Shown here piece after piece: positions 9,022 to 55,305 of a stretch of 64,000 bases of DNA. The stretch's first letter is position 1, and each line of letters begins with the position of its first letter. A model generated the notes under the pieces. That model was not told where the DNA came from and did not search any database. It saw nothing but the letters and a program-made list of their open reading frames with translations. The DNA lies in contig SVTL01000008.1 of the NCBI GenBank assembly GCA_015063795.1, positions 27,469-91,468 on the forward strand, read 5' to 3'. Source of the stretch: Oscillospiraceae bacterium (GTDB lineage: Bacteria; Bacillota; Clostridia; Oscillospirales; CAG-272). Position numbers and translations under genes: made by a program.

Positions 9022-9070
9022 TGAGCCGCAGGCTCAATTCATGGCAAAGCGCAATTCATGCGCGAAGCGC
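9022..9070. repeat. Hairpin array, AATTCATG linker
   Basis: GAGCC-GCA-GGCTC + AATTCATG + ... + AATTCATG + GCGCGAAGCGC. Confidence 0.65.
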
Positions 9071-9392: not shown

Positions 9393-9515
9393 TATCACAT
9401 TCGGCGAAGCCGAATATATCACGCCCACAAAGTGGGCATATCACGTTGGCGAAGCCAACATATCACATTCGGCGAAGCCGAATACATCACGCCGAACGAA
9501 GTGAGGCACACCGCC
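9393..9515. repeat. Hairpin array, ATATCAC linker
   Basis: ATTCGGC-GAA-GCCGAAT, CCCAC-AAA-GTGGG, GTTGGC-GAA-GCCAAC, ATTCGGC-GAA-GCCGAAT separated by ATATCAC/ACATCAC. Confidence 0.85.
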
Positions 9516-20545: not shown

Positions 20546-20778
20546 TTCTCTTTTGTTCGCTTTTCTCTTGCGCCACGGGCGCATGAAAAAAACACAAATT
20601 GTTTCCTCTGCGGCGCCCTTCGCAGCAAACCTCCGCGAAAAAGCGGCTAACGAATCTGCTTTCGCTCTCCTTGCAGCACACCGCGCCGTCAAGGATGGAC
20701 GCGATGCCGGTCGCACCGTTCTCACCCCATAACAAAAGGGACTTTATGAAAAAGCCCCCTTCGGAAGATTCAAGAACG

Positions 20779-21000
20779 TCATTCGTCTTCGTGTTCGCGG
20801 CCGTTCTCCGCCTTCGCACTCGCATCGACCGCGCTTTCGCCGATGATATAGCTGACCAGCACGCCCAAAGCGCTGACCACCGCCACCACCTGCCCCGCCG
20901 TCAGCTCGCTGACACCGAATGCGGTCAGCATCGCCGTCACAAAGCCGACCGCCGCCGCCCAGAATCTGCGCGACGACAGCTTTCTCTTCCAATCGATCAT
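20779..21000 (-). CDS. Phage holin-like small membrane protein
   Basis: MIDWKRKLSSRRFWAAAVGFVTAMLTAFGVSELTAGQVVAVVSALGVLVSYIIGESAVDA. Confidence 0.75.
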   Translation of the reverse strand: MIDWKRKLSSRRFWAAAVGFVTAMLTAFGVSELTAGQVVAVVSALGVLVSYIIGESAVDASAKAENGREHEDE

Positions 21001-21048
21001 ACCGTAAAAACCGTCCTTTCTCTTTTTTCGTCCTTCGCCTCTGTTTTT

Positions 21049-21633
21049 TTACTCCGCGCCGTCCATCGCCAGCCAGAGCTTGCGCCACAGCTCGGTCGAA
21101 AATTCGTATGCATTCAGGTAATCCACCGTCTGCTGCTCAAAGCCGCACCGGGCGGCCACCTGCAGCGCATAGTCGCTTCCGGCAGACTCCGCCTCACCGA
21201 CGGCATTCGGCAAACCGAGAAAGGCCGCCGCATCCAGCTGGGCATTGGTCCGATCGCGCACCTCCACATGCAGATGCGCGCCCGTCACCCTGCCCGTTGC
21301 GCCCTCGCGGCCGATCACGGTCCCCGCCTTCACGAAATCGCCCACCGAGACATATCGCTCGTCCAAATGGCAATAGTAAACGATCTCCCCGCTTTCGGCG
21401 AGGATGGCCACATAGTTGCCCCATTCGGCGCTGCGTCCGCTCGCCGCCCATTGGGAGACCAGCACGCGGCCGCGCGTCACCGACACGACCTCCTTGCTGT
21501 CGATGCCCACCAGATCGATCCCGCCGTGCCATTCCCCCTGCTGACCGGTAAACGGATCGGTCCGATAGCCATAGGGCGAGCTGACGCGGAAGCGCCTTCC
21601 CGTATAGGGCGAGCGTTTGACAAAAACGGCCAT
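21049..21633 (-). CDS. M23-family peptidase, phage endolysin
   Basis: RVSSPYGYRTDPFTGQQGEWHGGIDLVG ... VTGAHLHVEV (HxH of LytM). Confidence 0.88.
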   Translation of the reverse strand: MAVFVKRSPYTGRRFRVSSPYGYRTDPFTGQQGEWHGGIDLVGIDSKEVVSVTRGRVLVSQWAASGRSAEWGNYVAILAESGEIVYYCHLDERYVSVGDFVKAGTVIGREGATGRVTGAHLHVEVRDRTNAQLDAAAFLGLPNAVGEAESAGSDYALQVAARCGFEQQTVDYLNAYEFSTELWRKLWLAMDGAE

Positions 21634-21647
21634 GGTCTTTCCTCCTT

Positions 21648-21941
21648 TCACGCAGGGGGAAGCTCCAGCAGACGCTTCCACAAAGCCTCCACCGTCCCGT
21701 TCCCCCGCAATCTCTTATAGGAGACATACATCTCCTCGATGTCATCCTTGATATAGGTGGGGCAGCTGCCCTTGGTGATGTACTTCTCGCACTCCCGCTT
21801 GATGCGGTAGCCGAGGAGCGACTTCACGCCTCCCGTCACCCCGCGGACGCGCTGCCAGAGCAGACCGCAGAAGGAGCCGAGAAGACCGAACAGCAGTCCG
21901 CACAGGGCATCGGCCCACCACTGAAACAAAAACTCCGGCAT
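21648..21941 (-). CDS. Small phage-associated membrane protein
   Basis: N-terminal hydrophobic segment WWADALCGLLFGLLGSFCGLLW, then basic cytoplasmic part; between lysin and adaptor genes. Confidence 0.6.
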   Translation of the reverse strand: MPEFLFQWWADALCGLLFGLLGSFCGLLWQRVRGVTGGVKSLLGYRIKRECEKYITKGSCPTYIKDDIEEMYVSYKRLRGNGTVEALWKRLLELPPA

Positions 21942-22049
21942 AAAAATCCTCCCCTATCATGGTATGATCCGACCGCCCTCGCGTGAAGGGGCGGCCGTTT
22001 CTTTGTTCACGTTTTCAACCGATCTGACTTCGGCTTTTCCCCGTCGGTG

Positions 22050-22397
22050 TTAACGGTACCTGTTCACGATCGGCTCAACGACCGCCGCCGTGGAGCGTCG
22101 GATCGATTCCATCATCCGCTCGCACTGCGCGGACAGAAGGGCCGACTGCGCCTCGTTTTCATCGCTGACCAGCATCGCCGCGGCGAAAAAGGCGCAGGGA
22201 CAGACAAAGCGCTCGCCCAGCGGGAAGGGCTCGTCAAGCCCCTCCGCACAGACGGTCTCCTGCCCGCCCGCCTCCGCACAAAAGGCGTTGAGCAGGGGGA
22301 GGAAACGCTTTTCCAGATCGGCACAGTCTCCGCACGCATCCTCCTCGCCGATCAGGCTCAGCGTGATGCGGTAAAGCTCTTGACAGGTCATAACCAT
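22050..22397 (-). CDS. Phage head-tail adaptor-like protein
   Basis: Short alpha-helical ORF immediately downstream of coat gene: MVMTCQELYRITLSLIGEED... Confidence 0.5.
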   Translation of the reverse strand: MVMTCQELYRITLSLIGEEDACGDCADLEKRFLPLLNAFCAEAGGQETVCAEGLDEPFPLGERFVCPCAFFAAAMLVSDENEAQSALLSAQCERMMESIRRSTAAVVEPIVNRYR

Positions 22398-22413
22398 TTC
22401 CTCCCTTGGCTTC

Positions 22414-23268
22414 TTACACGAATTCAAACTGCACGCCCAGATCGAGCAGCAGGATCTCCTTGGGGTAAACGATCTTCGCGCCGTAGAGGTGCAGCCCCTT
22501 CACCGCATCGGCGAAGCGCTTTTCGGGGCGATAGGCCTCCACGCTGTTGATCTGCTCGGCGAAGGCGATGGCTCGCTTGGTTCTGGCCAGACACTTGTGG
22601 TAAAGCTGGTCGGTGCCGTCGTCGGCCTTGGCGATGTTGTTGGACACATACACGTCAAAGCCCACAAAGTTGCCCAGATAGCCGTTGGTCAGAGCCTGCT
22701 CGTTGTCGGAAGACTGCAGGATCTTGGCCTTCAGCAGCATCGATGCGATCGCGGGAGAGACCTCCAGCACCGTATCGGCGTTGGCGGAGACGTTGTTGGC
22801 CAGCAGCTTTTCGCGGGCGGTCAGCAGAAGGTCGATCATATCGGCGTGAGACACGGTCTGCTTCTGAATGACATTCTCCTCGCTGATCTCGCTCCAAAGG
22901 GAGTAGACATAGCGGTCGGCGGCATCGGCCAGCGCATCGGCAGCCTGACGCATAGCCTGCTTCATCAGCTTGGGCGTCTGCTGTGCCTTGTCGATGTCGT
23001 CGATCTGGAAGTTGAAGGCCTTGGCCTGCGTGATCTGCAGCTGACGGGTGGTGCTGTCCAGCGTCTGCAGGGTGGAGGAGAAGTCGGCGTTCTTGCTGTA
23101 ATCGAACACGTTGACCTTGCCGATGCCGGCAATGCGGACGGTATCGCCCTTGGAGCGGATGTCGCCCTCAAACTCGCGGTTGCAGTTGGATACGCCGATG
23201 TACTCCTTGTTCAGTTCGTTGTAGAGCGTTTCGCTCCAGACAGTAGGGATAAAATCGTTGATAGCCAT
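22414..23268 (-). CDS. Phage major capsid protein (P22 coat/gp5-like)
   Basis: FIPTVWSETLYNELNKEYIGVSNCNREFEGDIRSKGDTVRIAGIG ... position between scaffold and adaptor. Confidence 0.8.
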   Translation of the reverse strand: MAINDFIPTVWSETLYNELNKEYIGVSNCNREFEGDIRSKGDTVRIAGIGKVNVFDYSKNADFSSTLQTLDSTTRQLQITQAKAFNFQIDDIDKAQQTPKLMKQAMRQAADALADAADRYVYSLWSEISEENVIQKQTVSHADMIDLLLTAREKLLANNVSANADTVLEVSPAIASMLLKAKILQSSDNEQALTNGYLGNFVGFDVYVSNNIAKADDGTDQLYHKCLARTKRAIAFAEQINSVEAYRPEKRFADAVKGLHLYGAKIVYPKEILLLDLGVQFEFV

Positions 23269-23322
23269 AGTGTTTTTCTCCTTTTCTTTTGTGTTTTGTG
23301 TTTTCGGATGGATGCCGTTGCG

Positions 23323-23655
23323 TCAACGGCTGCTTCTTTCGAGGCTTCGCAGGACGGCCTCATACTGCTCGCGCACCTCAGCGCGGCTCATGCGGCGGAT
23401 GTCGTCAAGCGTGAAGAATTCCGCTCCGCCGCCACGCACCTCGCCCGGGCTCATAGACGCATTGAGACGGTTGCGCGCCTCGATCGCCGCGGCACTCTCT
23501 TTCGGCTCAGCGTCGGTCTGATTCGGCTCACTCGGCAACGTCTGTGCTTCCTTCGGCGGCATCGGTTCGTCCGGACTCGCCGTCGGATCCGCGGAGATCC
23601 TGCTCGCCGCGTTCTCCTCCGATTCCGTCATCTTCGCTCTTTCCTGCTCGTTCAT
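23323..23655 (-). CDS. Putative phage scaffolding protein (short, acidic/helical)
   Basis: Good RBS (GGAGG, 9-nt spacing); located between portal and coat; overlaps portal 3' end out of frame. Confidence 0.6.
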   Translation of the reverse strand: MNEQERAKMTESEENAASRISADPTASPDEPMPPKEAQTLPSEPNQTDAEPKESAAAIEARNRLNASMSPGEVRGGGAEFFTLDDIRRMSRAEVREQYEAVLRSLERSSR

Positions 23656-25156
23656 CGCTCATTCCCTCCTTTCCCACAATGGTGTTTTTATCCGGGATCA
23701 GTCCGGCCGGCAGACGGTCAAGGTACTCACGCAGGGTGATGTGACCGCCGTCCAGCAGACGGTCCAGCAAGGAGAGGACAGTGGACGAGCCGACTCTCGA
23801 CAGGTCGGACACATCCACGCGGGCGCGCACCCAGCCGTCGGTCAGCTGCGAGAGCGTCTTCTCTCCCTCACCCACCGGCACACGGCCGTCGGGGTAGCAG
23901 ACCACAAAGCGCTCGGCCAGCACCTGCGCCAGATCCTCCAGCGCGCGGCGGACGTTGCCCTTGATGTTCTCCAGCGGGATCGCGCTGGCCTCCTGCAGAG
24001 CGATGATGGCGCTGGTGTTGTTGGGCAGAGCCTCGCCCAGCGCGGTATCGGTCGCCCCCGCCGCCTCCTTGGTGCTGTCGATGGTCAGGCGGATCAGGTC
24101 CAGATAGCCCTCCTCCATGCGCCCCACCTCCAGCGTTTTGGCGGCGTTCTGCAGGTCTCCGCCCGAGATCACGCCGATGGCCTCGCCCACCTCGTTGGAC
24201 CATTCGGGGATCAGCTTTTTGTCGTAGATCACCTTGGAGAAGGCGGTGTCGGTCATGTGCTTCATGGCCATGGCGAAGGCCTTGTTGATGTACTTCTGGT
24301 TAGCCACCAGCTCAGACACCGGCGCCGCGCCGTGGAAGCGGTTCTTCACCCTCTCCCAGCAGAAGGAGGCGAAGGGGTAGAGACGGAAGGGCGTTTCGCA
24401 GCGGCGGAGCGTCAGATTCCTCACGCACTTCTCCCAGACCACATATCCTTGCTCGTTTCGGCTGAATTTGATCAGGTAGGTGGCCTTGCGCTCGCTTTCG
24501 GCCTCACTCTCCAGCTCCTCGCCGGCGTAGTCGCCCGCCATGACCTCCCCCTCCCCGTCGGGCAGGATCAGCAATGCCTCCTCCTCACGCAGGCCGTAGG
24601 AGATCGCTTCGCGGCGCAGGGCCCCCACCGATGCCCGTCCGCTGACGATCACATACTCCTGCCGCTGGATGGAGGGCTCGTTGACGTCGCTGACAAACAC
24701 ATTCACGTTGTCGATCAGCTTCACCGCCAGGTCCCCCGTGTAAGGCGGAGAACCGCGGTCGAGCGCGTCCCAGTAGACGTAAAAGATGCCGTCTCCGCTG
24801 ATGGCTGCGTCAAAGAGCGCGTCGCGGAGCAGGCTGTCCATACGGTTCTTCTCCCAGCAGGCCGAGGCACAGGCGTTGAGCGCATCCAGCGAGCTGCCGT
24901 CGGAGTCGGTGTAGCCGATGCCCACCCGGCAGGAGGCCACCGCGCTGACCAGATAGGAGACGATGCGGCGGACGATGTTGAACACCGGCGCCGGCAGGCC
25001 GGCTGTCTCCACCCCCTTCCACTGCTCGCCGCGGTAGAAGCGCTCGTTGGTGTTCACCGTCTCGTACAGACCGATGCGCCTCTTGTACGCACGCCCCTCC
25101 TCATACTGGCGGAAGGCCGCGGTCAGCGACGGCGGTTTCTTTCTGATTTTTCTCAT
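23528..25156 (-). CDS. Phage portal protein (P22-like)
   Basis: NTNERFYRGEQWKGVETAGLPAPVFNIVRRIVSYLVSAVAS ... NNTSAIIALQEASAIPLENIKGNVRRALEDLAQVLAERF. Confidence 0.85.
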   Translation of the reverse strand: MRKIRKKPPSLTAAFRQYEEGRAYKRRIGLYETVNTNERFYRGEQWKGVETAGLPAPVFNIVRRIVSYLVSAVASCRVGIGYTDSDGSSLDALNACASACWEKNRMDSLLRDALFDAAISGDGIFYVYWDALDRGSPPYTGDLAVKLIDNVNVFVSDVNEPSIQRQEYVIVSGRASVGALRREAISYGLREEEALLILPDGEGEVMAGDYAGEELESEAESERKATYLIKFSRNEQGYVVWEKCVRNLTLRRCETPFRLYPFASFCWERVKNRFHGAAPVSELVANQKYINKAFAMAMKHMTDTAFSKVIYDKKLIPEWSNEVGEAIGVISGGDLQNAAKTLEVGRMEEGYLDLIRLTIDSTKEAAGATDTALGEALPNNTSAIIALQEASAIPLENIKGNVRRALEDLAQVLAERFVVCYPDGRVPVGEGEKTLSQLTDGWVRARVDVSDLSRVGSSTVLSLLDRLLDGGHITLREYLDRLPAGLIPDKNTIVGKEGMSDERAGKSEDDGIGGERGEQDLRGSDGESGRTDAAEGSTDVAE

Positions 25157-25322
25157 GTGGCGTTCTTCCTTTCGTTGTATTGGATCATGGGTTTCTCATC
25201 CTTTCTCTTTCTTGCAGGCGTTGTTCTTGCGCGCAGACACTTCATCCGCGCACCGCTTCATCCGCGCACCGCTTCGTCCGCGCAGGCAGGTCTCTTGCAG
25301 ACAGTTCTCTTGCAGACCTTTC

Positions 25323-27062
25323 TCACGCATCCTGCCCGTGCTCACGCGTTTTGCCCTCGCCGCGCCTGCTTGCCACAGCCGAGAGACGGCGGACGGTACA
25401 GCCCTCGCCCGCCCCGTCGTGCGTGAGTGTCACCTTTACACGGGAGATCCGCTTCATGGGCGTTCGCAGACGGCAATCGGTGGGCGCGCCGACCGAGGAG
25501 GGCTGACAGACCGATTCCCCGGTATGCGTACAGCTCCGCCCCGTCTCGCTGAGAAGAGAGACCGTCAGCCCCTTGCCCTCGCCGGGATCGAGCGTGAGAA
25601 AGATGCGGTGAAGATCCTTGAAGTCGATGGAATGGCCCAGATCCGAAAACTCACTCTCAAAGCGGGCGGTGACGGTGCGTCCGTTGTCGGTGTCCGCCTC
25701 CTCTGTGAAGCAGAAGACCGCTCCGTTCGGATCGGCAAAAGCGATCCCCGCGGGCAGTCGGCCGATGATGCGCGAGACGGAAAAAGCATCGAAGAGATAC
25801 CACACCTTCCGCTGGTATTGGTAGACCGCCGTCTTTTCCTCCCCGAAAAACAGGATCTCACAGCGGCGGCGGTCAACGGCTATGTGCGCATGCGGGAAAA
25901 AATCCCGCCCCAAACGGTCGGATACCGCCTCGGACAGCAGCGATACGTTGGGCACATCGGGATCGAGGGCGTTGTGCCAGCCGTATACACCGCTTGCATC
26001 GGCTCCGATCACCTCATTGCCCGCCAGAACGGGCGCAGTCAGAGCCATGTGCCCCACCTCATCGTTGAGCAGGGTGAGCGGATGGCGGTAACAGACCACC
26101 CCGCCGCGGATGCCGTCAAGCTCGGGGCAGGTGTAGCGTGTCTTGCCCTCGGTGAAGATCATCAGCTTGCCCATAAAAGGGCAGAGTCCGGTGACCGCGA
26201 TCTCGCCGAATCCCATCTGCGTCAGACCGTCGATGGGAAAGTAAAGCTCGCTCTCGCTTCCGCCGTGCGGCTCGGTGTGGCAGTAGCAGGCCGAATTGTC
26301 TCTGTGGCCGTACAGGTAGAGACGGCTGCCCCCTGCCCCGCCGTGAAAGACCACACCGCGCGTGAAGCGGCAGAGGTACGCCCTCCATCCGAAATCCTTC
26401 AGCGTATACTGCACCTCCAGGTACGACGCCGGACGCGGGCAGATGTCGCTGAGCGCAACGGCCATTCCGGATGCCGACTCGCCCACCGTATAGAAGCCCG
26501 AGGCCATGGTGATGCCGTCCACCAGCACCGCCTGTACCGACAGCACATCCCCCTGCAGGTGATAGACCGCGCTCTCGTTCGGCGCAAAGCGAAGTCTCAC
26601 GCGGTCGGTCAGCAGGTTGCGGCTCTCGCAAACGATCCCTTCGCCCGAGGGCTCCGCCTCCGCGGCCAGCAAGGGAACGTACCCCGCCACCTCGTACACA
26701 CCGCTGATGCCAACCGACAGCAGACGCTCGCCGTCCGCAACCAGCAATCGCTCGCCGAAGGGGATCATGGCGATCTCTCCCTCCGAGGTGGTCAGCGTGG
26801 TCACCATCGTCAGCACGCCGTTCGTAAAGCGGTAGAGCGCGCCTCCCATGCAGGCGTAAAGACCGCGGATCACCTCCGCATCCACATACGCCACCCCTCG
26901 CAGCGGAGCGCCGAATTCGCAGAACAGCGTCATGCCGTCCCTCTTCTTCAGCCTGCCGTCGGGCGTCACCCGGAAGTTCATCTGCTCGCCTGCCCCCTTC
27001 CCCAGCCCGGCGGCCAGGTCAAAGTCGTATACATAGGCCGGCGGCCTTTTTGCATTGGACAT
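25323..27062 (-). CDS. Phage structural protein with propeller-like repeats (candidate gp10-like hub/stabilisation protein)
   Basis: 579 aa, repeated short beta motifs; lies between TerL and portal on same strand. Confidence 0.55.
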   Translation of the reverse strand: MSNAKRPPAYVYDFDLAAGLGKGAGEQMNFRVTPDGRLKKRDGMTLFCEFGAPLRGVAYVDAEVIRGLYACMGGALYRFTNGVLTMVTTLTTSEGEIAMIPFGERLLVADGERLLSVGISGVYEVAGYVPLLAAEAEPSGEGIVCESRNLLTDRVRLRFAPNESAVYHLQGDVLSVQAVLVDGITMASGFYTVGESASGMAVALSDICPRPASYLEVQYTLKDFGWRAYLCRFTRGVVFHGGAGGSRLYLYGHRDNSACYCHTEPHGGSESELYFPIDGLTQMGFGEIAVTGLCPFMGKLMIFTEGKTRYTCPELDGIRGGVVCYRHPLTLLNDEVGHMALTAPVLAGNEVIGADASGVYGWHNALDPDVPNVSLLSEAVSDRLGRDFFPHAHIAVDRRRCEILFFGEEKTAVYQYQRKVWYLFDAFSVSRIIGRLPAGIAFADPNGAVFCFTEEADTDNGRTVTARFESEFSDLGHSIDFKDLHRIFLTLDPGEGKGLTVSLLSETGRSCTHTGESVCQPSSVGAPTDCRLRTPMKRISRVKVTLTHDGAGEGCTVRRLSAVASRRGEGKTREHGQDA

Positions 27063-27086
27063 ATCCTTTCAAACTCCTTTCCTTAC

Positions 27087-27464
27087 TCAAGGTCCGATCG
27101 CCCTCTGTCCGGCGCAAAGCATCGAACCTTTTCTCATGTCAAGATGCGGCAGATCCGCATGCGCATCTCTCGCCTTCGCCCCGCTCATCGCCGTACCTGC
27201 GCCCCACCGCTCCCCCGCCAAGGTCCCGTCGGCGCAGGCCGTCGGGACGTCCCCCTTCGCCGCGCATCGCACAAAAAAGCGCAAGCCGCAAGCCATCGCG
27301 CCGTCACGCAAGCCCACGCAAGCCCGCACACCATCGGCGAAGGGCACCGCCGCCATTCTCTCCGCAAGCAAGCTCGCTCCGATGTTCCGCGGCGGTCTTG
27401 GCGGGGGAGCAGCAAGCGAATCACCGCCCGCTTCGGGAGGATCAGTAACGGGCGAAGGCGGCAA
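27087..27464 (-). CDS. Possible small phage ORF (TTG start)
   Basis: AAGGAG RBS inside terL 3' end 7 nt before TTG; sequence composition not convincing. Confidence 0.35.
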   Translation of the reverse strand: MPPSPVTDPPEAGGDSLAAPPPRPPRNIGASLLAERMAAVPFADGVRACVGLRDGAMACGLRFFVRCAAKGDVPTACADGTLAGERWGAGTAMSGAKARDAHADLPHLDMRKGSMLCAGQRAIGP

Positions 27465-28776
27465 AGCTGCTCTCCTTTTTCATAAAAGAGAAATCCTCGC
27501 GCTCAAGGGCGGCGGGCGGGCAGGCGCGGGACATCAGCGCATAGCGCAGCGCCTCGGGCGCGTGGGTGATGGCGTGGGGCTCATCGGACGCATCCTCGGG
27601 ACGCCTGCGGTCGAAGGTCAGCAGGGGCAGACAGCGGATCAGCTCGGAGCAGGTGGAAAACATCTGCAATCTCGCCGTCCCCCCCTCCTGCACCTTCAGA
27701 TACTCGCGCACCACACGCCAGCCGTCGATGCGGCGGTTGTCGGCGCGGATGAGGGGCGGGATCGCGGCGGCAGACTGCATGATCTCCACGCCGGAATAGC
27801 CGCTCTCCTGCCTGCGTGACCACAGATCGGGGGACGCGGCGGCGTATTCGACACCCTCCCCCTCGCACAGACGCTCCAGCTCGCCCGCCGCCTGGGAGAG
27901 CGTCAGTCCCGAACGGCAGAATTCGCCGTACACCGTGCAGCGCCCCTCGAAATCCACCGCCAGAAGCAGGGCGGCAAAGCAATCGAAGCCGTAGTCAAAG
28001 GCGGCAAAACGCTTCCACTCGGGCGGGATCGCAAAGGGCTCGCACACATGAACATCCCGGGAAAACTCGCGGAAATACTGCCCCTCGAACAGATCCCAGC
28101 GCCCGTACAGCCAGGCCTGCTTCATCTCGTTCGGCAGGCTCTCCAGCTGCCTGACATACTCGGGATCCTTCTCTAAGAGCACATCGTTGTCATACACGGT
28201 GGCGGGGATGAACTCATAATCGCTCCCCCTCTCGCCCTCGCGGTACTGCCGATCGAGAAACAGCCGCTTCACCCAGCCATGCCCCACACCGCCGGGGTTG
28301 CAGGTGAGGTACATCCGCTTGGGGAAGCCGTTGGCACCGCGGACGCAGGCCTTCAGCGTGTTGAATTGGTATTCGGTCAGCTGGGTGGCCTCGTCGATGG
28401 CGATGATGTCATACTCCTGCCCCTGATACTGCAGCACATCGCTCTCGCTGTTGCAATAGCCCAGCTTCAGACGGCTGCCGTTGGGGAAGGTGAAGCACTT
28501 GGCCGCCTCGCTGTAACGGGCATACCCCTCCAGCTCACTGCGCATGGGGAGGATGTGGTTTTCGCGCAGCTCGGGGAAGGTGCGGCGGACGATCAGACAG
28601 CGAAGCCCGGCATAGCGGCAGGCCATCAGGATCAGCTTGCGGCGCAGGGCCCAGGATTTGCCGCCGCCCCGCGAGCCGCCGTAGGCAATGTACTTCTTGC
28701 GCGAGGCGAAAAAACGCTTTTGCTTTTCGTTGGGCGTTCCGCCCAGCACCAGCTTACGCCCCGTCCTCATAGGCAT
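27442..28776 (-). CDS. terL: Phage terminase large subunit
   Basis: YGGSRGGGKSWALRRK Walker A, IIAIDEATQLTEYQF Walker B, LTCNPGG, nuclease-domain FDYGFD. Confidence 0.93.
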   Translation of the reverse strand: MPMRTGRKLVLGGTPNEKQKRFFASRKKYIAYGGSRGGGKSWALRRKLILMACRYAGLRCLIVRRTFPELRENHILPMRSELEGYARYSEAAKCFTFPNGSRLKLGYCNSESDVLQYQGQEYDIIAIDEATQLTEYQFNTLKACVRGANGFPKRMYLTCNPGGVGHGWVKRLFLDRQYREGERGSDYEFIPATVYDNDVLLEKDPEYVRQLESLPNEMKQAWLYGRWDLFEGQYFREFSRDVHVCEPFAIPPEWKRFAAFDYGFDCFAALLLAVDFEGRCTVYGEFCRSGLTLSQAAGELERLCEGEGVEYAAASPDLWSRRQESGYSGVEIMQSAAAIPPLIRADNRRIDGWRVVREYLKVQEGGTARLQMFSTCSELIRCLPLLTFDRRRPEDASDEPHAITHAPEALRYALMSRACPPAALEREDFSFMKKESSFAAFARY

Positions 28777-29128
28777 CGTGTCCGCACACCACCGTCAGCC
28801 CGTCGGACTCCTCGCCGCCCTCGGCCAGCCCCTGCAGGTAGGCGATGCTCTGCGCGCTGTTGCCCGACTTGGTGTTCACCGCCTCGTCGAGGAAAGTGGA
28901 CAGAGCCAGATCGTAGCCGCGGGGGTAGGCAAGGCGCAAAGCGGCAAATTCGGCGCGGGTGATGCGGCAATAGCGGCAGAAGCCGGCGGCATTGGCCAGT
29001 CTGGCGCGGCCGTTCTCCGAGCAGAAGGCCGCATATTCCTCCACCTTCCGCATGAACTGCTTTTCCGAGCGGAAGCGGATGCAAAGCGTCTCCTCCCCCG
29101 TTCCCTGCTCTTTTTTTCTCCTTGCGAT
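28754..29128 (-). CDS. Phage terminase small subunit, probable ATC start
   Basis: (I/M)ARRKKEQGTGEETLCIRFRSEKQFMRKVEEYAAFCSENGRARLANAAGFCRYC...; AAAGGAGG RBS 8 nt before in-frame ATC; stop codon further upstream at 29147-29149. Confidence 0.7.
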   Translation of the reverse strand: MARRKKEQGTGEETLCIRFRSEKQFMRKVEEYAAFCSENGRARLANAAGFCRYCRITRAEFAALRLAYPRGYDLALSTFLDEAVNTKSGNSAQSIAYLQGLAEGGEESDGLTVVCGHDAYEDGA

Positions 29129-29157
29129 GGCAGATCCCTCCTTTCGTCAAACAAATT

Positions 29158-29173
29158 AAGAACATATGTTCTT
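29158..29173 (-). promoter_or_regulatory. LexA/DinR-box-like palindrome upstream of the terminase operon
   Basis: AAGAACATATGTTCTT, perfect 16-bp palindrome containing GAAC-ATAT-GTTC. Confidence 0.55.
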
Positions 29174-29286
29174 CTTTTTTTCGAAGCGGCAAGCGCTGAA
29201 CGCCACCGCTTTTGTTTTGCAGGCAGATTGTACCACAAAGCCGACAAAAAAACAGTACCGCAAGGTACCGTTTTGTCCGCTCTGAG

Positions 29287-29505
29287 GACGTGATATGCCT
29301 CACTTCGTTCGGCGTGATCTGTTTGCTTTGCAAACGTGATCTGTTCGGCTCCGCCGAATGTGATATACCGCTTCGCGGTGTTGAACGCCCGCTGCGCGGG
29401 CATGAATTGAACTTCGTTCATGAATTGTCCGCTCGGGACATGAATTGAAATCTTCGATTTCATGAATTGCGCCACGGGCGCGTGAATTGGCGCTTCGCAA
29501 GCAAA
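29287..29505. repeat. Hairpin array containing both GTGATAT- and ATGAATT-type linkers
   Basis: GTTTGC-TTT-GCAAAC GTGATCT GTTCGGC-TCC-GCCGAAT GTGATAT ACCGC-TTC-GCGGT ... GCCCGC-TGC-GCGGGC ATGAATT GAAC-TTC-GTTC ATGAATT GTCC..GGAC ATGAATT GAAATC-TTC-GATTTC ATGAATT. Confidence 0.9.
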
Positions 29506-31240: not shown

Positions 31241-31485
31241 CCGCCTCCGGCGGGTTTTCGCGTTGGCGAAGCCAACATATCACACCGCGAAGCGGTATAT
31301 CACATTCGGCAAAGCCGAATATATCACGTTTGCGAAGCAAACACACCTCCCCGCCTCCGGCGGGGTTTTCGCGTCGGCGGAGCCGACATATCACGTTGGC
31401 GAAGCCAACATATCACACCGCGAAGCGGTATATCACATTCGGCGAAGCCGAATATATCACGTTTGCGAAGCAAACACACTAAGGA
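31241..31485. repeat. Hairpin array, ATATCAC linker
   Basis: GTTGGC-GAA-GCCAAC, CCGC-GAA-GCGG, ATTCGGC-(A/G)AA-GCCGAAT, GTTTGC-GAA-GCAAAC each present twice, joined by ATATCAC. Confidence 0.92.
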
Positions 31486-34835: not shown

Positions 34836-35007
34836 AGGTATCCCTCCTTGTCTTGCATGTGATGGAACGTATGAAAAAAGAGGATGGACTTGGGTCTTCC
34901 TCTTTATCATAGCATATTATTTGTTATTTGTCAACTTTCTCTACAAAAAGGAGAGGTTTCGACAAAGCGACCGGTAACGCAAAAGCCATAAGGCAAGGGC
35001 GGGGAGT

Positions 35008-35320
35008 CGGCTTTGCCAACGCGATAGATTCGGCTTCGCCGACGCGAGACGGTGTAGGGCGGTCGTCTTGCTCCCGCCGTGAAAACGAAGAGAAATGCAC
35101 CTTCGGTGCGCGATATGTTGGCTTCGCAAACGTGATAGATTCGGCTTCGCCGACGCGAGACGTTGTAGGGCGGTCGTCTTGCTCCCGCCGTGAAAACGAA
35201 GAGAAATGCACCTTCGGTGCGCGATATGTTGGCTTCGCCAACGCGATATGCCTCACTTCGTTCGGCGCGATAGATTCGGCTTCGCCGAATGCGATATGCC
35301 CGCTTCGCGGGCGCTGTTAT
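35008..35320. repeat. Hairpin array containing a 111-bp tandem duplication
   Basis: Units 35023-35133 and 35134-35244 nearly identical, then further GTTGGC/ATTCGGC/GCCCGC hairpins. Confidence 0.9.
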
Positions 35321-43809: not shown

Positions 43810-43992
43810 ACACCGCGAAGCGGTATATCATGACGCGAAGCGTCAATTCATGAACAAAGTTCAATTCATGCGCCTGTGGCGCAATTCATGACGCAAATGC
43901 GTCAATTCATGAAATCGAAGATTTCAATTCATGCGCCGCAGGTGCAATTCACGACGCGAAGCGTCAATTCATGAACGAAGTTCAATTCATGC
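43810..43992. repeat. Hairpin array, AATTCATG linker
   Basis: CCGC-GAA-GCGG, TGACGC-GAA-GCGTCA, GAAC-AAA-GTTC, GCGCC-TGT-GGCGC, GAAATC-GAA-GATTTC, TGACGC-GAA-GCGTCA, GAAC-GAA-GTTC with AATTCATG. Confidence 0.92.
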
Positions 43993-44686
43993 GCCCGTTC
44001 TGTTCCAGATACCGCTTCAGCGGCAGACAGCCGTTTTCGGTGAACAGATAATGCTCGCACAGAGACAGGTCCAGCTCGCGGAGCAGAACCGACAGCCGCC
44101 GCGTCAGGCGCAGATCCTCCTCCGACGGGCAAAGATCGCCGGCAGGGTGGTTGTGCGCGAGAAACAGATACACCGCCCGCGACTGCATCGCCCGTTCGGT
44201 CAGCGCGCGCACATTCACCGCCGAAGAGACCGGCGTCCCCTTGCCGAGGCAAAGGCAGTCGATCAACCTGCGCTTTCCGTCCAGCAGCAGAACATACGTC
44301 AGCTCATCACAGGCACCCGTGAAGCGGGAGGAGAGAAACGCACGGACCGTCTCCTCGTCGTTCAGCGACACTCCGTCCGCCCTTTCCGCCGCCAGACGTG
44401 CCGCGATCGCAGGAATGAGACGGATCAGCACAGCGGTGTGCTCACCGATGCCCTTCACATCCATCAGCGCGGAAGCATCCGCCTCCAACAGCGACTCAAG
44501 AGTGGGAAAGCGCTCGCAAAGACGGTGAGCCAGCTCGTTGGTGTCCCTTCTCGGAATGGCATAAAACAAAAGCAGCTCAACCAGATTGTGATAAGCAAAG
44601 GAGTCCGCGCCCTCCTGCAGGAAGCGGTCACGCAGGCGCTTACGGTGACCGCCGTGAAGCTCGCTTTTGCTTTTCTCCTCGCTCAC
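43982..44686 (-). CDS. radC: RadC-family JAB/MPN-domain protein
   Basis: ELLLFYAIPRRDTNELAHRL ... FLAHNHPAGDLCPSEEDLRLTRRL. Confidence 0.94.
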   Translation of the reverse strand: MSEEKSKSELHGGHRKRLRDRFLQEGADSFAYHNLVELLLFYAIPRRDTNELAHRLCERFPTLESLLEADASALMDVKGIGEHTAVLIRLIPAIAARLAAERADGVSLNDEETVRAFLSSRFTGACDELTYVLLLDGKRRLIDCLCLGKGTPVSSAVNVRALTERAMQSRAVYLFLAHNHPAGDLCPSEEDLRLTRRLSVLLRELDLSLCEHYLFTENGCLPLKRYLEQNGRMN

Positions 44687-46157: not shown

Positions 46158-46500
46158 GCACCCCTTCCCACATTCGGCGAAGCCGAATCTATCGCGCCGA
46201 ACGAAGTGAGGCATATCACGTCCGCGAAGCAGACCAGCCCGCATAGCGGGCTATTCATGCGCCGCAGGCGCAATTCATGAACGAGGTTCAATTCATGAAA
46301 TCATCGATTTCAATTCATGCCGCAAAGCGGCTATTCGCTTTCCTTTCACGGCGGAAGTAAACCCCCGCCCTACGGCTTCTCACGTCGGCGGAGCCGACAT
46401 ATCACGTTGGCGAAGCCAACATATCACACCGCGAAGCGGTATATCGCGTTCGGGCTCAGCCCGAACATATCGCAGCCCGCGAAGCGGGCTTTTCTATCCC
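46158..46500. repeat. Composite hairpin array with ATATCAC and AATTCATG linkers plus GGGCGG module
   Basis: ATTCGGCGAAGCCGAAT, AGCCCGC-ATA-GCGGGCT, GCGCC-GCA-GGCGC, GTCGGC-GGA-GCCGAC, GTTGGC-GAA-GCCAAC, CCGC-GAA-GCGG, TTCGGGCTCAGCCCGAA. Confidence 0.9.
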
Positions 46501-51141: not shown

Positions 51142-52311
51142 TTAGTTTTTGATGATTTCGGTTCCTTTTTGCAATATTTCCAAATACTCTCGAAAAACAA
51201 AGGTTTTATACCTCTTTTTTTCAGGCGTTTTGTCGAATAAGATTCCCATCCCGCAAAAAGCATCCACCACGGAACTGGCGGTCGGCAACGAAACCTTCAG
51301 CATATCGGCTACTTCTTTTTTTGTTACAATCGGCTTTTCAAACAACAGATTCAAAAGAACGCTATCATTATTGTTTGCCTTATCATTTCGCAACAGCAGT
51401 TCGGAATATTTGCTTTGCAATGCAATAATTTGCTTAGCGGAATCGGTAGCCTCATCCGAAACCGATGCTACCCCACGTAGAAAAAACTTGATCCAGCTTT
51501 CCCAATCTCCACGAACTCTTACCGCCATCAATCGATCATAGTATTCCAATCGATTCTGTTTAAAATAATAACTAAGGTACAGCAAAGGTTGTGACAGAAT
51601 TTTCTGCTGGCAAAGCCAAAAGGTTATCAACAGCCGCCCCATTCGGCCGTTCCCATCCAAAAAGGGATGGATTGACTCAAACTGTGCATGGATCAAAGCA
51701 ATTTTTATTAAAGCAGGAAGATCGTCATCCTCATATAAATAATCCTCCAAATCATACAAGGCTTTTTCCATGTCTTCCACAGTTGGCGGAATGAATGTGG
51801 CCGTTTCCAATGTACATCCCTGAGGACCGATCCAGTTTTGAGACTTCCGGAACTCTCCCGGGCTTTTGTCAAATCCTCGCACATCCTTCAACAATACTTT
51901 GTGAATGTTCCGAATCAATCGGAGACTCAACGGAAGCTCGCTAAGATTCGCCAGTCCCCAATTAATCGCATTTACATAATTGACAACTTCGACCACCTCA
52001 TTATAAGAATGATCGTTCGTTTCGCTTTCTGATGTATTTAAAACATCAACAAGAGAAGCCTGTGTGCCCTCTATCTGGGCGCTCAAAACCGCCTCTTTTT
52101 TCACATACATCGCCACAAACAACTCGGGATTCGGTAAAATCTCGGTGATCCCGTCCAATCGTCCCAGCTTACGATCGGCCAGTGAAAGCAATTTTTGCAT
52201 TTCACTATCAATCTTAATCGGAGGGTTTGGCGGAAGTTTAGCCGGAACAAAGGAAGAATAGCCTCTTGTTGTATTCATCATAATACCCGCTCGATTGGAT
52301 TCCAACTTCAT
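51142..52311 (-). CDS. Fic-domain protein with N-terminal inhibitory helix and C-terminal winged helix
   Basis: HPFLDGNGRMGR Fic motif; SAQIEGTQAS inhibitory motif (S/TxxxEG). Confidence 0.92.
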   Translation of the reverse strand: MKLESNRAGIMMNTTRGYSSFVPAKLPPNPPIKIDSEMQKLLSLADRKLGRLDGITEILPNPELFVAMYVKKEAVLSAQIEGTQASLVDVLNTSESETNDHSYNEVVEVVNYVNAINWGLANLSELPLSLRLIRNIHKVLLKDVRGFDKSPGEFRKSQNWIGPQGCTLETATFIPPTVEDMEKALYDLEDYLYEDDDLPALIKIALIHAQFESIHPFLDGNGRMGRLLITFWLCQQKILSQPLLYLSYYFKQNRLEYYDRLMAVRVRGDWESWIKFFLRGVASVSDEATDSAKQIIALQSKYSELLLRNDKANNNDSVLLNLLFEKPIVTKKEVADMLKVSLPTASSVVDAFCGMGILFDKTPEKKRYKTFVFREYLEILQKGTEIIKN

Positions 52312-52679
52312 TGATTCTCACTCTCCTATTCTATGTATGCCCTAAATTGATATGCATTGTTTGTAATGAAAGTTTCTTTGCATTAAAACGATCAAATTCA
52401 TTTTAACTAAAAAAATTATATCATTTTTTTCTTTAAAGTCAACCCCTCGGCAAATTATTATCGTATTTTTTACTAAGGTCCCCTGCGCCGCTACGAAATA
52501 AAACACATACCCTTTTGAATCAAACATTCCGTCTACAATCACTTCGCCACCGCAAGCAAAAAGTCTTCCTTTATATATATGTATATCAAATTGCATGAAT
52601 ATGTCCGCCTCCCGGAGGTAAGGCCGTCTTGCTTCTGCCGTATTGCGGCGCATGGCGCCGCTGAGACGTATATACTGTT

Positions 52680-55200: not shown

Positions 55201-55305
55201 GTGTCACGCCCATGCAGTGGGCATATCGCGTCCGCGAAGCGGACATATCGCACCGCAAAGCGGTATATCGCATTCGGCGAAGCCGAATATATCGCATCAG
55301 CCGAA
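55201..55305. repeat. Hairpin array, ATATCGC linker variant
   Basis: GCCCATGCAGTGGGC ATATCGC GTCCGC-GAA-GCGGAC ATATCGC CCGC-AAA-GCGG ATATCGC ATTCGGC-GAA-GCCGAAT ATATCGC. Confidence 0.88.

Follow-up and report, generated by a model that had tools for sequence, protein, structure and literature searches.

The properties by which gene transfer agents (GTAs) are recognized are genes related to those of tailed phages, endogenization, co-diversification with the host, packaging of random host DNA, a head too small for the agent's own genes, and delivery of the packaged DNA (PMC9662315). RcGTA and other alphaproteobacterial GTAs are inherited vertically, have phylogenies congruent with those of their hosts, and have lost their mobility genes (PMC9662315). 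The described system that is closest to the locus considered here is FpGTA I of Faecalibacterium, a podovirus-like operon of 10.5 kb that is reported to produce 40-nm particles containing about 9 kb of DNA; a second operon, FpGTA II, carries lysis and fibre genes, and a use other than gene transfer has been left open for this system (Borodovich et al. 2026; PMC12946183).

The present locus is a cassette of head, packaging, and lysis genes in a 64,000-nucleotide stretch of DNA, referred to as the window, whose numbering is used throughout except where another locus is named. It is interpreted here as an operon for a podovirus-type particle that has been domesticated, is inherited vertically, and works as a GTA, a reading to which a probability of about 0.7 is assigned; that it specifies a domesticated particle of some kind is highly probable.

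Results

The cassette consists of 10 intact ORFs, all on the minus strand from 20779 to about 29128 and ordered from TerS to holin, in agreement with an earlier note on this DNA. It is present in one copy in the genome and sits between pckG and a nitrilase gene; the chromosomal character of the two flanks, as previously described, is borne out by ksgA, pckG, the nitrilase gene, a Na:Ala symporter gene, and mnmG. Profile matches identify five of the products as proposed in that note, the large terminase subunit TerL (27442..28776; phrog_979, 2e-46; PF04466, 3e-11; PF03237, 4e-10), the portal protein (23528..25156; phrog_156, 1e-29; PF16510, P22_portal, 5e-17), the major coat protein (22414..23268; phrog_267, 2e-47; PF25209, 3e-12), an M23 peptidase that is a putative endolysin (21049..21681; PF01551, 2e-20), and the holin (20779..21000; phrog_297, 4e-7). 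A small membrane protein (21648..21941) matches phrog_4105 (7e-15) and is probably lysis-related.

TerS, scaffold, and adaptor gave no direct family match in profile searches of the window ORFs. The identity of the small terminase subunit, TerS (28754..29128), is supported through its relatives: the window-type family, aligned in 39 genomes, matches the TerS of a second kind of cassette, type B, in a profile-profile comparison (probability 96.4), and type-B TerS matches PF16677. A structure search with TerS gave no significant match, a result that speaks neither for nor against a DNA-binding domain. The gene overlaps the start of TerL, and its own start is uncertain, the candidates being ATG at 29053 and a non-canonical ATC at 29128 that is preceded by GGAGG; the alignment with relatives extends into the part of the frame that precedes the ATG. 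There is no clear start at 29173, the position previously taken as the end of the cassette. The scaffold (23323..23655) and head-tail adaptor (22050..22427) are putative assignments based on position and conservation, the former lying between portal and coat and the latter following the coat, each kept in 39 genomes; the adaptor has a weak profile match (probability 74) to the type-B adaptor, which itself has a weak, sub-cutoff match to SU10_adaptor.

The remaining ORF (25323..27062), formerly described as propeller-like, is predicted to encode a short-tail nozzle of the P22 gp10/T7 gp12 type. Its AlphaFold model (pLDDT 88.7) matches P22 gp10 (8eap; E 1.8e-15, TM 0.56/0.67) as well as the nozzles of Sf6, T7, and other podoviruses in the PDB, and phrog_578 is matched in addition (Hc3, 2e-4). 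For this one ORF, the view that no tail gene is recognizable was wrong. Short tandem repeats with 16-bp and 15-bp units occupy positions 25240-25317, between the nozzle and portal genes.

The seven-gene core, from TerS to the adaptor, was recovered in 39 genomes from 18 genera of the window's family, and this recurrence indicates that the block is no chance pattern. It should be noted that these genomes were picked from the strongest TerL matches and give no estimate of the share of the window type in the family. TerS, TerL, portal, scaffold, coat, and adaptor are on one strand in all 39, and the genes of the core retain nearly their entire length. The gene order is that of the window in 30 genomes; the nozzle is at the end in five, one is rearranged, and three (L166, L167, and L116, from genera g54 and g35) have no nozzle gene in the cassette, nor was one found elsewhere in those genomes by profile search. 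Relatives of TerL (E below 1e-20) are present in 208 of 295 genomes and 55 of 71 genera in a sample of the family, and TerL relatives were found in 214 of 394 genomes in a sample of the order, counts to which other types of cassette, and probably prophages, contribute. The flanks of the cassette vary between genomes, and hprK is located at most 5.2 kb from it in eight loci from four genera.

Among the 39 genomes, a lysis trio beside the core is peculiar to the window; in genera g12 and g14 the core is followed by genes for an XhlA-like protein, a LysM amidase, and a glycine-rich protein. Among these genomes, the phrog_4105 protein occurs only in that of the window (G000) and in one other, G068, and the G068 copy is in a small isolated locus amid chromosomal genes (L325, G068:C35, 9702-13119) that also encodes an amidase endolysin and a fibre-like protein of 591 amino acids. 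This locus is possibly a second GTA operon similar to FpGTA II. A second operon of the FpGTA II kind, with lysis and fibre genes, was considered as a feature of the whole family and rejected, based on the restriction of phrog_4105 to these two genomes, the presence of relatives of the G068 amidase in three other genomes, and the absence of relatives of the fibre-like protein from the other genomes searched. No receptor-binding protein was found.

A host tree constructed from 26 proteins of the S10 operon region and a cassette tree constructed from five proteins have 36 taxa in common and agree in 25 of 33 splits, as compared with 0.2 on average and at most 3 when labels are permuted; the Mantel correlation between cassette and host is 0.85 (permuted maximum 0.25). 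The agreement extends inside genera, in g28 and nearly in g32, and each single cassette gene exceeds permutation in its agreement with the host tree. Well-supported conflicts with the host tree number four for coat, two for TerS, one for the nozzle, and none for TerL, portal, scaffold, or adaptor; the four coat conflicts suggest some exchange, and exchange of single cassette genes is likely to have occurred. In six close pairs of relatives, from which the window's copy is too distant to be included, TerL, portal, and coat have dN/dS values of 0.05-0.2, which are rough because synonymous sites are near saturation. The nozzle is the fastest-changing gene in these pairs; terminase and portal are the best conserved of the cassette. 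Of the checks proposed in the earlier note, those of synteny and vertical inheritance in relatives gave host-congruent trees, differing flanks, and hprK recurring beside the cassette in four genera, and that of dN/dS gave purifying selection in the relatives. These data indicate vertical descent under selection and do not support decay, a satellite, or a prophage that is mobile.

The statement that the cassette has no recognizable integrase, repressor, or replication genes was upheld by profile searches, which also recognized no tailspike or ejection genes within it, and a PF00589 search found no tyrosine integrase on the window's contig. The same search, which covered tyrosine integrases, found none that was intact in the vicinity of the cassette in the 39 genomes. 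Three of the 39 have a tyrosine integrase on the cassette contig, more than 160 kb away in two and, in the third (G038), as a 131-amino acid fragment adjoining the cassette, which hints at a prophage origin. This fragment is the sole trace, in relatives, of the larger prophage with integrase and att sites that had been suggested as grounds for refutation. When the ends of the cassette were searched for att direct repeats, one repeat of 15 bp (20568 and 29467) was obtained; it belongs to the local hairpin units, one of which, at 43870, is nearly identical to it, and repeats in shuffled sequence also reach 15 bp.

Discussion

Like FpGTA I, the window cassette is a small podovirus-like operon that contains TerS, TerL, portal, scaffold, and coat genes but no replication genes, and the two come from the same bacterial order. 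Genomes that presumably represent Faecalibacterium were recognized with a MAM protein query, whose matches, at about 50% identity, were confined to one genus; the TerL loci compared from them have the expected gene content and are probable, rather than proven, FpGTA I loci. TerL, portal, and nozzle of a set that includes these loci are homologous with those of the window type (profile-profile E 3e-110, 5e-11, and 3e-13, respectively), and the TerLs of the loci are 36-37% identical to that of the window, but coat, scaffold, TerS, and adaptor have no significant profile match, the alignments being small. The coat belongs to phrog_1357 in Faecalibacterium and phrog_267 in the window, yet both match PF25209, so that a distant kinship is possible. 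In the window the lysis genes are immediately beside the core; in Faecalibacterium they form a separate operon. The four unmatched components indicate a distinct podovirus-type lineage, not a simple orthologue of FpGTA I; by analogy, the cassette probably works in the same way as FpGTA I. Type-B cassettes (L136, L139, L141, L142, L147, L228, and L229), which come from a neighbouring family as well as from other genera, have homologous TerL, portal, nozzle, and TerS, but their coat is of another kind and shows a weak match of the Mu gpT-like type.

With respect to the properties that define GTAs, the cassette has genes related to those of tailed phages (TerL, portal, coat, and nozzle), from which phage-like particles would be formed; it is fully endogenized, with chromosomal neighbours and no tyrosine integrase nearby in the 39 genomes, and it has co-diversified with its hosts, as indicated by the common splits (25/33) and Mantel r (0.85). 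Vertical inheritance congruent with the host and the loss of mobility genes are features of RcGTA and other alphaproteobacterial GTAs also, but RcGTA is siphovirus-like with a longer tail, whereas the cassette is predicted to encode a short tail of the P22 type. P22-like podoviruses resemble it in their portal and gp10-type nozzle; the cassette differs from them in its lack of recognized integrase, repressor, replication, tailspike, and ejection genes and in an inheritance that tracks the host.

In the proposed mechanism, TerS and TerL would feed double-stranded DNA via the portal into a small capsid that scaffold and coat assemble, and the adaptor and P22 gp10-type nozzle would seal the head and form its very short tail. 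Some of the cells may be burst by the membrane protein, M23 lysin, and holin and so release particles, whose DNA would be delivered to recipient cells; a receptor-binding protein may be encoded elsewhere. Since inheritance is host-like and no integrase, replication, or repressor gene is recognized, the most plausible cargo of the particle is chromosomal DNA of the host, which would be taken up at random.

The earlier note had offered a degraded podovirus prophage, a satellite-type element, and a domesticated GTA-like particle as options, and the last of these is favoured by the host-congruent phylogeny, the purifying selection, the conservation of the core in 39 genomes, the lack of nearby intact tyrosine integrases, the recurrent proximity of hprK, and the reported production of DNA-filled particles by the Faecalibacterium system with homologous TerL, portal, and nozzle (PMC12946183). 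Less easily accommodated in the GTA reading are the failure to find a receptor-binding protein or a family-wide second operon, the three genomes with no nozzle, and the four host-tree conflicts of the coat. A domesticated particle that, like PBSX of Bacillus subtilis, packages host DNA but is used to kill competitors, or one that serves as a lysis device, instead of transferring genes, is the least improbable of the alternatives, although it is considered unlikely. Conservation and selection fit any beneficial particle, and the window has its lysis genes right next to the core, but the best-conserved genes are those for terminase and portal, which points to DNA packaging, and profile searches of the cassette found no contractile tail or toxin gene. 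A use of this kind has also been left open for FpGTA (PMC12946183).

The explanations that do not invoke domestication are all much weaker. A phage or prophage lineage of very strict host range, co-diversified with its hosts and with its remaining genes elsewhere, is suggested by related TerLs, some of which occur in viral contigs and some in loci resembling ordinary prophages, but it is improbable in light of the 39 cassettes with no intact tyrosine integrase nearby, the agreement with the host tree even inside genera, and the common chromosomal neighbour, hprK. Capsid-encoding elements of the cf-PICI type have their own head and packaging genes together with an integrase and are mobile; the small cassette resembles them in the former respect, but neither integrase nor mobility was found for it. 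A satellite dependent on a helper phage is therefore very improbable, and satellites and mobile prophages are rejected on the combined grounds of absent tyrosine integrases nearby and host-congruent trees. Simple decay of a prophage, to which the lack of early, lysogeny, and fibre genes and the integrase fragment in G038 might be attributed, has the lowest probability of all: as had been argued from the open frames of the window, the intact ORFs speak against it, and it is rejected for the core, which is near full length in the 39 genomes and shows low dN/dS in close relatives.

A broader proposal, for which the odds are judged to be slightly below even, is that a podovirus-type GTA was domesticated before the family diversified and has been kept since, and that the three coat types, with their shared TerL, portal, and nozzle ancestry, reflect repeated domestication or coat swapping across the order. 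If this is true, capsid-mediated DNA transfer would be a common trait among gut Clostridia. The lineage described here is separate from that of Faecalibacterium and extends the signature of co-diversification, which helps to define GTAs, to another Clostridial family; if DNA is packaged, it would constitute a route of gene exchange that is missed by surveys of mobile elements.

The window also contains arrays of mini-hairpins, at 2669-2810, 9035-9070, 9393-9491, 29280-29490, 31252-31480, 35006-35307, 43828-43995, 46272-46437, and 55220-55295, one of which is directly upstream of TerS. The units are about 20-23 bp in length, many with GCGAAGC-type loops, and short linkers, for example AATTCATG or ATATCAC, lie between them. 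A gene of the Fic family (51145-52317; PF02661 and PF13784) is located in a patch of low GC content (about 41%) at 51-53 kb.
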